Source: Frankia casuarinae
GTDB taxonomy: Bacteria > Actinomycetota > Actinomycetes > Frankiales > Frankiaceae
Direction: 5' to 3'
Assembly (NCBI RefSeq): GCF_000013345.1
Contig: NC_007777.1
Span: 5,332,001-5,396,000, forward strand
Length of the DNA: 64,000 nucleotides
Shown: in pieces, positions 28,807 through 50,854 of the stretch
How positions within the stretch are numbered: the first letter of the stretch is position 1
Layout of the letters: each line of letters opens with the position of its first letter
Translations under genes and position numbers: made by a program
Notes under the pieces: model-generated
The model's database searches: none
What the model was told of the DNA's origin: nothing
Seen by the model: only the letters and a program-made list of their open reading frames with translations

Positions 28807-30009
28807 CTAGGACGGCGGGGCCTCCACTCGGGGGGCCGGCACTTCGGCCCGCCCGAGAAGCTCCTGGAAGTCACGGCCGTGCAGGCCGCGCTTCGTCTGG
28901 GTCGCCGTGGTCCGGACCCGCTCAAGCAGCGGCTCGATCTCGCTGTCGTCGGCGGTGATGCCGTACTGGGCCAGCGCGTAACGCACCGAGGCCCGGCCAC
29001 TATGCTTCCCGAACGCGAGCCGCCGTTGCCCGCCGACTTCGGCGGGGTCGAACGGCTCGTAGGTCGACGGGTGTCGCAGCACGCCGTGGACGTGGATCCC
29101 CGACTCGTGCGCGAACACCGACTCACCGACCACCGCCTTGCCTACCGGCAGCGGGCGGCAGGCGGCCCGGGCCACCATCCGCGCGAGCCTGCGGAACGAG
29201 GTGGTGTCCAAGTCCACCGGCACCTTCAACAGGTGCCGCAGGGCCATCGCCACCTCCTCGAGCGGGGCGTTGCCGGCCCGTTCCCCCAGACCCAGCACCG
29301 TGGTGCTAACCCAGGTGAATCCGGCCTGAACCGCGGCGAGGGTGTTTGCGGTCGCCAGACCGAAGTCGTCGTGGGCGTGGATCTCCCACTCCCCCGGGAC
29401 CGCCTGGACCAGCCGGCCGAGCCGGGTGTAGGCGCTGACCGGGTCCAGCAGACCGACCGTGTCGGCCCAGCGGATCCGGGTGGCGCCCCACTCGCGCAGC
29501 TCGCCGGCCAGCTCGATGACGAAGTTGTCGTCCGCGCGGGAGGCGTCCTCCAGGCCGACGCTGAATCGCAGCCCGCGGTCGGCCGCGTCGAAGACGCAGT
29601 CGCGGATGCGGCGCCGCGCCCATCCCCGGTCCCGGCCCAGCTTGCTCTTCAGATGCAGGTCGGAGACGGGAATGGTGAGGTGCGCGGTGACAATTCCGCA
29701 GGACACCGCGGCATCGATGTCGCGGCGGTCGGCCCGGCACCACGCCACCACGCCGGCCTGGGGTTGCGTCGCGAGGATCTCCCGCAGGACATCCCGTTCG
29801 GCGGGTCCCATGGCAGGTATTCCGGCCTCGATCTGGTGTACGCCGATGGCGTCCAGAGCAGCGGCGATGGCAAGTTTCTCGGCTGCGGTGAATGCCACTC
29901 CAGGCGCCTGCTCGCCGTCGCGCAGGGTGGTGTCGCAAAACCTGACCGGCGCGGCCGGCTCGACCGTAGGCGCGGATGAGCTGGGAAAACGGGGACCGGG
30001 CACTGTCAT
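28807..30009 (-). CDS. nifV: Homocitrate synthase NifV
   Basis: Condenses acetyl-CoA with 2-oxoglutarate to homocitrate, the organic ligand of FeMo-co; 400 residues. DTTLRDGEQAPG at 26-37 is the family signature; metal ligands are in HAHDDFG and HESGIHVHG. The first ~22 residues are a Pro/Ser-rich leader. Starts GTG 30012, ATG 30009 and GTG 30003 are all possible; none has a strong ribosome site. In legume rhizobia nifV is often absent and the host supplies homocitrate; its presence here fits a free-living nitrogen fixer. Confidence 0.95.
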   Translation of the reverse strand: MTVPGPRFPSSSAPTVEPAAPVRFCDTTLRDGEQAPGVAFTAAEKLAIAAALDAIGVHQIEAGIPAMGPAERDVLREILATQPQAGVVAWCRADRRDIDAAVSCGIVTAHLTIPVSDLHLKSKLGRDRGWARRRIRDCVFDAADRGLRFSVGLEDASRADDNFVIELAGELREWGATRIRWADTVGLLDPVSAYTRLGRLVQAVPGEWEIHAHDDFGLATANTLAAVQAGFTWVSTTVLGLGERAGNAPLEEVAMALRHLLKVPVDLDTTSFRRLARMVARAACRPLPVGKAVVGESVFAHESGIHVHGVLRHPSTYEPFDPAEVGGQRRLAFGKHSGRASVRYALAQYGITADDSEIEPLLERVRTTATQTKRGLHGRDFQELLGRAEVPAPRVEAPPS

Positions 30010-30060
30010 CACCAGCCGTCGATCGAGAACAGAAGGCCATGGGATCGCCCCCGAACAGTG

Positions 30061-30093: not shown

Positions 30094-30203
30094 ACTAGGA
30101 GCCGTTTATTTCAGCCCTGCAAGCCCCGGTAACTTCGGCGTTAACAGGTATTCCGTCGGGATGACTGGAAGCTTCTCCCGAAAGATACCTCGAAGGATAT
30201 TCT

Positions 30204-30235
30204 CAAGGAAAAATCTTTAATTAAAATTTTCCTGG
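30204..30235. promoter_or_regulatory. AT-rich palindromic element A, upstream of nifV
   Basis: Inverted repeat with half-sites CAAGGAAAAAT and AATTTTCCTGG around a TTTAATTAA-type core, 195 bases before the nifV start. It matches element B (10747-10779) upstream of the ferredoxin gene at most positions of the arms and in the flanking TTTCC-plus-C tract. Confidence 0.55.
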
Positions 30236-30701
30236 AAACTTTCCCCCGTGGCGCCGCCCACATAGCCCCGGGCGCGCCGCCGAAGTGGTCCGGAGCACAC
30301 GGTACGCCAGGAAGATCGCCCGATTACGGGGATCCCCCAGCTCCGTCGGCGCGATGTAGATGACAGTAGCAAACGCCCCGTGCAGATGAGATGTTATCGG
30401 AACATTCGAACAAGAGTTTCAGCGAGGTACCTGCCATGTTACGTAGAGATGTCGGCGCTATCGATGCTGGTCACGGCGGATGAACAAGATGACTCACATT
30501 CATGTTGGCAGCTTCCCGACCGCCGCGCGATCCCGATCACCAGGATTAACTTTTCCGAAACCGACAAGGTCCGTCGTGAGTGGACCTCGCCCGAGGAGTC
30601 GGTTATCTTATGGATAACAGTTATTTTCCGCCGGGCGACGCCGGGCGACGCCGACCTGGCAGCACGCAGTGCTTTCCTATGGAGAGCGGAAGGAGCTGGG
30701 C

Positions 30702-30752
30702 GTGTCGGTTCGCGCATACGTGGAGTACTTGGGTTGCCAGTCGGGATGGTAG
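30702..30752 (+). CDS. Tiny upstream ORF (16 residues), coupled to the next gene
   Basis: GTG start with a strong AAGGAG site 7 bases upstream, reading VSVRAYVEYLGCQSGW and a TAG stop two bases before the ATG of the next gene. An in-frame GTG at 30669 would give 27 residues. The ribosome site clearly belongs to this ORF; the downstream gene has only a weak one, so translation is probably coupled. It may be a leader peptide, a small protein, or the relic of a longer fused N terminus. Confidence 0.45.
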   Translation: MSVRAYVEYLGCQSGW

Positions 30753-30754
30753 AG

Positions 30755-31192
30755 ATGACGGACACGCAGATGGTCGGCGTGCCGTCCGACCCGCCGGGAA
30801 CGTGGGAGGACCTGCGTGCGACCGTAGTAGGCAACAACGGTGTCTTCCGGATCAACATGGGGACACTGCGGGAGATCGGCGGCTATGGCCGATTGGGTAC
30901 CAACGTGCGGCAGATCCTGAGCCGGAACCTCGCCGGCATCGGTCTCGGGCACCTGCCCACGGAACTACCGTCCTACCAGGACAAAGAGGTTCTGCTCTTC
31001 CAGTTCGGCACACCGGCGGCAGAGATCGTCGAGGCGGTCCGGGAGGGCGCCTCCGACGGAGCTGAATCCGCGCTGGTCAGGCTGAACTCCTCGCAGGACA
31101 TCGCGAAGGTGCGCGACGCCTCACTCAAGGCTGTCGAGCTCCTCTCGATTCTGAACGACCGCTGCCGGGACTGCATGCGCCCGCTGCATTAA
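30755..31192 (+). CDS. Conserved-looking protein of unknown function
   Basis: A 145-residue soluble protein with good actinobacterial codon use. I do not recognise the family. It begins MTDTQMVGVPSDPPGTW; a segment NNGVFRINMGTLREIGGYGR is followed by a helical stretch with PTELPSYQDKEVLLF and a C-terminal CRDCMRP with two cysteines. No signal peptide or membrane helix. It is divergent from nifV, preceded by a tiny coupled ORF, and followed by a clean terminator, so it is a one-gene (or two-ORF) unit at the edge of the nif island. Confidence 0.65.
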   Translation: MTDTQMVGVPSDPPGTWEDLRATVVGNNGVFRINMGTLREIGGYGRLGTNVRQILSRNLAGIGLGHLPTELPSYQDKEVLLFQFGTPAAEIVEAVREGASDGAESALVRLNSSQDIAKVRDASLKAVELLSILNDRCRDCMRPLH

Positions 31193-31207: not shown

Positions 31208-31245
31208 CACCTCCGTCGCCGGCCTGACGGTCGGCGACGGAGGTG
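31208..31245 (+). terminator. Hairpin terminator after the unknown gene
   Basis: Perfect 13-base inverted repeat CACCTCCGTCGCC / GGCGACGGAGGTG with a 12-base loop, 16 bases after the stop. Confidence 0.8.
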
Positions 31246-32233: not shown

Positions 32234-33789
32234 GTCCCGGTTGGCTGACCCCGATCAGCCGAGAGATGTCGGCCGCCGCGGATCGCCGGCCGAGAGCCGA
32301 CGACTGCTGACGGGGGTCCGCGGCACCACCCACAGGAACGCTCCGAACCCCGGATCGATGGTCGCGCGACGCAACGCCGCCAACACCACGCGTACGTGAA
32401 AGGCTCCGCAGGAAACCGAGAAGCCTTTTTCCATACCGCAACCATGCCCCCAACCGACCAAGCGCCGCGACCGGCGCAGGCGTGCCGCTATAGCAAGTGA
32501 TGAGTGAGCGCGCACTTGCGCTAACTCCAGCCGGCAGCCGAGCTAGCAGGCGGGCGCTAACTGTTGAAAGCGTATCAGCTAGCACGGCAATCACCGCTCG
32601 ACCACTTCTCGTCCGGCTTATCGAAGGTCAGTCCGTCTCGTCGGACCGGTCCAGTGATACCACCGCCGCGCGACGAGCGGATCGGGCGACCGCGCCGCAC
32701 CGATCACAATGCACAGCCAGCCGCACATCCAGACATCCGGCCGACCATGAACGCGGTGCCGAGGAGGAACGGTCCCCTCAACGTCGTTGACCGACGCCCG
32801 TTCCGGAGCACTCCAGCGGCGGTTCCAGCGCGAGGGATGCGCACCCCTACGAGGTAGTCCGACACCGGAAGCGGGGGTACCCCTTCTGGCCCCCTCATCG
32901 GGAGGTAGGCCATGGCCCGGAACATTCTCGGCTTCCCTGAACACCGTTCCCCGCAGGCGTGTCGGGAATACGGATGACGGGGACAGCCGGGTACAGCGAA
33001 AACAGCCCTACGAGGCCCTCCGCAAGCCCCCTACGGGGTTAGTCCGGAGGTTGGCTCGGGGGTTAGTCTGGGGGTAGTCCGGCCTAGGCGCCGGTTCCAC
33101 CGTCGGCAGCCGTTGCCATCGGCCGCCGGCCATCGGCCATCGTGATTCTCCGCGGCTCGGCTACCCGGTCGGCTACCCGGGGCAGCCGCTCGGACGGTCC
33201 GCCGAGAGTTGCCGTTGTTTAATGTTGTGCGCTTTCGTTGCTTCAGCACGATTGCCCGATGTCATACGACGATGATCTGTTGTTGCGGGGGTGGACGCCA
33301 GTCGGATGATCGGCGGGGCTGCCGCCGAGGGAGGCCGGGATTTCTTTGGGTCGCAGACGTGGGTGGATCAGGCGCGGGTGACCTGGCGCCCATGCTGGCG
33401 GCGAGGTAGGTGTGTTGTCTGACATGACAGTGGGTAACAGTAGAGCTTCTGGCGACATTTCCTGCCTATCCGTTGTGTCAAGGCAGTGTTCTGTCGGTGC
33501 GGGGCGCCTGCGTGCGGGAGGCCGGACTCTCGGGGTCGGTGGTCGACATCGACCTGTTCGGGGTAGGCGAACCGGTGGCACCGCACTGCCCGCTCCCCCC
33601 GACGCGGGCGGTGCGACCCGCACGGACCGATCAGGCGCGACCGCCTGTCGGACATCACTCGTCCGCAGGACCCTTCCGCACGACTGTTCCGCACGACTCT
33701 TCTGCAGGTGAGGCATGTACGCGGCACGGACGGACGGGTAGGAGTTGACTGACGGCACCTGGCGGCACCCGAGAGGACAAGGTGGACCG

Positions 33790-34212
33790 ATGAGCCTGAG
33801 CATCCGCAACCGACTGACCGGAACCGTCACCGACATCACCGAAGGTGCGGTGATGAGCACCGTGACCGTCGATCTTTCCGGCGGGCAGACCGTCACCGCC
33901 GCGGTGACCCTTGATGCGATCAAGGATCTCGGCCTCTCGGTGGGGGCCACCGTCGAGATTCTGATCAAGTCCACCGAGGTGGCGCTGGCCACGGGCGGCG
34001 TGGACGGTCTGAGCATCCGTAACCGGCTGCGCGGCACGGTATCCAGCCTGGAGACCGGCGGTGCCATGGCCGTCGTGCACATCGCCCTCGACGGTGGCGG
34101 CGTGCTCACCGCGGCGATCACCCTGGCCGCCGCGACCGACCTCGCTCTGGCCGCGGGTTCCTCGGTGACTGCCCTGGTCAAGTCGACGGAGGTGGCCCTC
34201 GCGACAGCCTGA
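33790..34212 (+). CDS. Di-Mop molybdate-binding protein (molbindin)
   Basis: A 140-residue protein made of two tandem Mop domains (about 1-70 and 72-140), each with the start LSIRNRLxGTV and the end STEVALAT. Such molbindins assemble into rings that store or buffer molybdate in the cytoplasm. The setting, between the nitrogenase cluster and a hydrogenase, fits molybdate supply for FeMo-co, although no transporter genes (modABC) are adjacent. ATG 33790 follows AGAGGACAAGG. Confidence 0.92.
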   Translation: MSLSIRNRLTGTVTDITEGAVMSTVTVDLSGGQTVTAAVTLDAIKDLGLSVGATVEILIKSTEVALATGGVDGLSIRNRLRGTVSSLETGGAMAVVHIALDGGGVLTAAITLAAATDLALAAGSSVTALVKSTEVALATA

Positions 34213-50630: not shown

Positions 50631-50854
50631 GGTTCTACGGTGCCTCCCCACGCCACCACACGCCAGGTCAAGCCTTCTGCCAGCGTCTTTACCCGCAGAT
50701 TCCTTATAGTCGGCACACTCCACGCTCGAGATCCACGCCGCGCCCGACGCTCCCTCAATGGCCGACGTAACGCGGTGGAAACAGCTCCGAGCGAAAATAC
50801 CCAGAGGAAGATACGGAAAGCATGCACACGGATACCCGACGGAAGGATGAGCGG

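Follow-up and report, generated by a model that had tools for sequence, protein, structure and literature searches.

How do Frankia species connect nitrogen fixation to nitrogen supply, and is a gene of no named family at the border of the nif cluster part of the answer? Nitrogen-responsive control of nif is a problem common to Frankia and the proteobacteria, where it is the task of NifA and RpoN. Unlike that proteobacterial system, Frankia has no nifA, nifL or rpoN, and its nif switch-on has not been worked out (PMC5745019). The window analysed here is a 64,000-nucleotide stretch of the 5,433,628 bp genome of Frankia casuarinae. Within it, nifV (homocitrate synthase; 28807..30012, minus strand), which has orthologues in 10/10 genomes searched, is separated by a divergent region of 742 bp from a plus-strand gene of 145 codons (30755..31192; ATG at 30755, TAA ending at 31192). 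Just ahead of this gene sits a 16-codon leader ORF (30702..30752, plus strand) that opens with GTG at 30702 and closes with TAG at 30750-30752, leaving a gap of two bases (AG) before the ATG. A Shine-Dalgarno sequence, AAGGAG (30690..30695, plus strand), lies 6 nt before the GTG. A first-pass annotation had described a small ORF with a strong ribosome site ending two bases before the 145-residue gene, and had its coordinates right; it gave no identification of the protein and included neither the nif-only distribution nor the GlnR boxes described below. It had also credited the unit with its own terminator. A 17-bp hairpin (31208..31245, plus strand) is indeed present 3' of the gene and is a probable terminator, although it lacks a T-run and is for that reason missed by the standard terminator scan. 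Between nifV and this hairpin there is a single plus-strand transcription unit.

The most secure part of a regulatory reading of this region is its pair of GlnR-type boxes. On the gene side, the box TTAAC-TTTTCC-GAAAC (30546..30561, plus strand) follows the pattern TTnAC-n6-GAAAC; on the nif side, TTAAC-GCCGAA-GTTAC (30129..30144, minus strand) follows TTAAC-n6-GTTAC and lies upstream of nifV in Frankia or of nifH in Parafrankia. We compared 13 loci from Frankia and Parafrankia, and each has a box on both sides. The half-sites of the gene-side box are fixed in 13/13 loci apart from the free third ('n') position while all six spacer positions vary, and those of the nif-side box are fixed in 13/13 with a variable spacer. 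Both divergent promoters match, at all 13 loci, the published GlnR consensus sequences gTnAc-n6-GaAAc, GTnAC-n6-GTnAC and t/gTAAC-n6-Gc/aAAC (PMC10704036). In a pattern search, the strict box occurs at 33 sites on both strands of the 5.4-Mb genome, whereas its reversed control occurs at 3; a strict-box site about 100 nt upstream of glnA served as a positive control. A further strict GlnR-type box, GTAACGCGGTGGAAAC, lies at 50767-50782 on the plus strand of the window. The genome encodes a GlnR orthologue with 73% identity (an approximate value) to the Streptomyces protein; the next-best homologues in the same genome reach 34-37%. Control of both promoters by GlnR is, on these sequence grounds, well supported, and GlnR would be expected to occupy both boxes. 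The likeness to the actinobacterial GlnR regulon (glnA, amtB and others) extends to the box sequence, the n6 spacing, the GlnR orthologue and the box 5' of glnA. The difference is that here two boxes flank a divergent pair consisting of nif and a gene outside the named families.

Further promoter elements accompany the gene-side box. Read from alignments, a -35/-10 pair with 18-nt spacing lies 3' of the box in Frankia and Parafrankia. The probable promoter of this strain is GTGGAC - 18 nt - TATCTT (30580..30609, plus strand), with TTGGAC as the -35 in most relatives and CTGGAC - 18 - TAGCGT in Parafrankia; a consensus promoter scan places it below threshold in this strain. The palindrome that had been noticed at 30602-30618 is present (GTTATCTTATGGATAAC, unstranded). 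It covers the probable -10, and most Frankia s.s. retain it while Parafrankia does not, making it a possible operator in Frankia s.s. only; its form, TTATC-N5-GATAA, has two exact sites genome-wide. On the nif side, an AT-rich sequence of palindromic form (GGAAAAATTTATCC-like) at 30200-30240 is conserved in both Frankia and Parafrankia and is a possible second regulator site.

The distribution of the 145-residue gene ties it to nif. We found the gene in 19 Frankiaceae genomes (12 Frankia s.s., the window strain included, and 7 others), all 19 of which have nifH, and in 0/10 nif-negative Frankiaceae genomes. It is carried by 12/13 Frankia s.s., 6/6 Parafrankia and one further family member. Its absence from the 13th Frankia s.s. 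genome (G007) is only apparent: only 583 nt upstream of nifV are left on its contig, too few to reach the expected start of the gene, and the nif-side box is present. In Parafrankia nifV is located elsewhere, and the gene stays directly divergent from nifH at a distance of 831-909 nt. Three metagenome-assembled genomes (MAGs) carry the gene together with nifH, two labelled Mycobacterium and one Frankia. The MAGs STB_95 and WOFB04 (labelled Mycobacterium sp.) have an actinobacterial nif cluster with the same divergent gene; diazotrophy would be unusual under that label, and binning errors may be involved. No GlnR boxes were seen at the HOG45C and STB_95 MAG loci.

Linkage to nif is not universal. 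The gene is absent from five nif+ genomes of presumed Protofrankia; nif as such can therefore do without it, and its function could lie elsewhere. At one presumed Protofrankia locus, korAB-type oxidoreductase genes lie beyond nifV in its place. A similar box, GTwAC-n6-GATAC, stands upstream of nifV in all three presumed Protofrankia inspected (L028, L029, L030), and thus GlnR control of nif probably predates the gene or does not require it. GlnR-type boxes before nif in Frankia, Parafrankia and, in similar form, presumed Protofrankia offer a testable answer to how the nitrogen signal reaches nif. They occur even where the 145-residue gene is missing, and are a candidate general answer to nitrogen control of nif across the Frankiaceae.

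We then turn to the protein itself. Searches of the 145-residue sequence against Pfam, NCBIfam, PHROGs, PADLOC and PDB sequences returned nothing significant, and with no Pfam, NCBIfam or PADLOC match it fits no named regulator family. We regarded weak PDB matches to organic hydroperoxide resistance proteins as coincidental. Distant relatives with 31-50% identity are found on actinobacterial plasmids, one alphaproteobacterial plasmid, a few actinobacterial chromosomes and three phage-like contigs; a phage database and a first viral scan contained no relatives. AlphaFold2 gave a poor model with near relatives alone (mean pLDDT 61.5) and a better one after the phage-contig relatives were added (mean pLDDT 74.6), in which the blocks of a core at residues 21-90 average 79-93. 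The order of elements in the model (helix, strand, helix, helix, strand, strand) is that of a winged helix-turn-helix, predicted at residues about 17-96 and followed by a long C-terminal helix at residues 116-140. Structural comparison with the PDB gave weak matches, with a best Z of 3.8 and every Foldseek E at 0.36 or above; the basis of the fold assignment is therefore the order of the elements together with the confidence of the model. Low-scoring structural rows over residues 15-85 include the winged-helix proteins RepE, CtsR, Stn1 and SelB. With RepE and CtsR the modelled protein shares the H-E-H-H-E-E order over about 60-70 aligned residues; it differs from such winged helix-turn-helix proteins in that Z is below 4 and there is no sequence similarity, and in having the C-terminal helix and a CxxC motif in a protein outside Pfam and NCBIfam. 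This CxxC tail (C137, C140) is invariant in nif-linked members, occurring in 9/9 of them versus 0/8 of the other members inspected. Invariant basic residues lie in and around the predicted recognition-helix region. Judging from the model, the protein likely binds DNA, and it probably acts as a dimer; the C-terminal helix and CxxC tail could together form a metal or redox sensor.

These features are suggestive of an arrangement to which we give an even chance: that the region is a GlnR-controlled nif divergon whose divergent gene encodes a local DNA-binding regulator. Under nitrogen limitation, GlnR, an OmpR-type regulator, would bind the box before the nif operon (the nifV-nifH side) as well as the second box before the 145-residue gene, switching on transcription in both directions. 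The winged-helix product would then probably act on nif and/or on its own promoter, with DNA binding as its presumed activity and nif as its presumed target. A more ambitious version, which we consider doubtful, sees in this protein the nif-specific regulator that Frankia and Parafrankia are missing. It would be an activator or repressor of the winged-helix type, induced by GlnR, with a CxxC at the dimer interface for sensing oxygen, metal or redox state, and it would tune nif transcription in place of the proteobacterial NifA layer. The divergent gene, predicted to encode a DNA-binding protein, is a concrete candidate for control at a second level specific to nif. Both halves of the divergon are worth testing because Frankia lacks the proteobacterial regulators and must control nif by means that have yet to be worked out. 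In the literature we searched, no paper describes control of Frankia nif by GlnR or mentions the gene under any locus tag tried. A published study of CcI3 mutants checked the nif range Francci3_4472 to 4489 for mutations (PMC5745019), and the 145-residue gene lies just outside that range.

The same evidence can be read differently. The gene could encode a nif-linked accessory protein, co-regulated by GlnR and serving nitrogenase maturation, protection or metal handling through its CxxC, that does not act on DNA. Such a role is possible, if rather unlikely: it would suit a nif linkage that is strict yet not universal, a CxxC tail specific to the nif clade and a fold whose PDB matches are weak, but against it stand the predicted winged-helix order and the invariant basic residues in and around the recognition-helix region. 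Relatives that occur apart from nif, on plasmids and phage contigs, also point to a general domain rather than to nitrogenase chemistry. Those relatives raise a second alternative, in which a winged helix from a mobile element, acting in partner binding or counter-defence and not as a transcription factor, was captured and fixed beside nif in part of the family. The relative on the Aureimonas plasmid pAU20f has the phosphorothioation genes dndC/dndD a few genes away and adjoins a RelE/ParE pair, and one on a Rhodococcus plasmid is near Swt1-HEPN and DUF1156 genes; we take these surroundings as a mobile-element, defence-type neighbourhood. While such settings favour capture, the nif-linked gene is under strong purifying selection (dN/dS 0.12), keeps its position and orientation, has its own GlnR box, and shows a nif-only distribution across Frankia, Parafrankia and the Mycobacterium MAGs, all of which make this alternative quite improbable. 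The local DNA-binding regulator remains the reading we prefer.

Within Frankia s.s., a further feature of the unit is the leader ORF, whose 16 codons encode VSVRAYVEYLGCQSGW. The AAGGAG (invariant), the GTG, the 16-codon length, the TAG and the 2-nt gap are kept in 12/12 Frankia s.s. genomes with the gene, and a run of 53 nt here is free of indels in all 12 while the sequence immediately 5' is indel-rich. The first-pass annotation had allowed the ORF 16 to 27 codons; the shorter form is the one that is conserved, and the 27-codon version (start at 30669) is not kept, as one-base indels between that GTG and the ribosome site break its frame in relatives. The encoded peptide is not conserved. 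Its dN/dS is 1.41, compared with 0.12 for the body of the 145-residue gene, and variable sites by codon position number 9, 8 and 4 of 15, so that third positions vary least. Constant residues among the 12 Frankia s.s. are Val1 (read as Met), Ser2, Val3, Gly11, Cys12 and Gly15; the leader has only one conserved Cys, and its Trp is substituted in 3/12 species.

What is conserved, then, is the arrangement, and we consider the leader most likely to be a start-stop-restart device for translation coupling, judging from its sequence. In Frankia s.s., ribosomes would initiate at the leader's strong site, terminate at its TAG, 2 nt short of the ATG, and reinitiate there on the larger gene. Termination-reinitiation coupling of neighbouring genes has been described (PMC6728339, PMC12548453), and the present case has the same 2-nt stop-start distance with a strong upstream and a weaker downstream ribosome site; in contrast to those gene pairs, the upstream partner is a 16-codon ORF with no conserved peptide. 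The proximity expected of a coupled pair is found here as TAG-2 nt-ATG. Relative to 1500 random stretches of the window, anti-Shine-Dalgarno pairing falls in the 1% tail for the leader (-11.9 kcal/mol) and between the 5% and 10% tails for the 145-residue gene (-8.6 kcal/mol). The earlier statement that a good ribosome site belongs to the small ORF alone therefore holds as a matter of degree and not as an absolute. That the larger gene depends on the small ORF is plausible in Frankia s.s., where every genome compared keeps the arrangement. However, the gene's own site, at about -8 kcal/mol, is not negligible and suffices in Parafrankia, so coupling may merely boost expression.

Beyond Frankia s.s. 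the leader has few counterparts. The MAG HOG45C has a related 11-codon ORF that starts Met-Ser-Val and ends with a TAG two bases before the gene's GTG. Parafrankia has no leader ORF: an in-frame TAG lies two codons (6 nt) upstream of the GTG start, and the only candidate counterparts are ORFs with no ribosome site that are not present in all strains. In the Mycobacterium MAGs the leader is absent and the gene starts directly behind its own ribosome site. The conservation check proposed for the small ORF thus gave a divided answer, with the ORF kept within one genus and, HOG45C aside, absent outside it.

The small ORF could also be a chance occurrence, with the gene starting from its own site. 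Short ORFs are frequent in GC-rich DNA, and since all 12 species have two of the three frames open here, an open frame is weak evidence by itself; together with the adequacy of the gene's own site in Parafrankia, this gives the idea some force. Chance would nonetheless have to account for a ribosome site, start, length, stop and gap retained together in an indel-free segment beside indel-rich sequence, and for the same TAG-NN-start spacing in HOG45C, and we think it unlikely. The suggestions of leader-peptide control or of a peptide with a partner fare worse: a peptide that senses an amino acid such as Cys by ribosome stalling or attenuation would fit the strong ribosome site and the Gly-Cys that is invariant mid-peptide in 12/12, but it is very unlikely. 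The peptide is not under purifying selection, its Trp is not conserved and only one Cys is; RNA folding is not significant in this strain (z -1.0 and 0.6), no Rfam family matches, and Parafrankia has no such leader. On the same observations we rejected an amino-acid attenuator and a structured leader or riboswitch. A frameshifted N terminus was likewise discarded. Although the reading frame of the larger gene continues open well 5' of its ATG, the conserved protein begins at 30755; Parafrankia has its in-frame stop, the Mycobacterium MAGs start at the equivalent place, and no homologue fuses the two frames. Translation coupling is the probable role that we retain for the leader. Downstream of the unit, an ORF at 33745-34212 resembles, by eye from its sequence, a tandem Mop/TOBE molybdate-binding protein.
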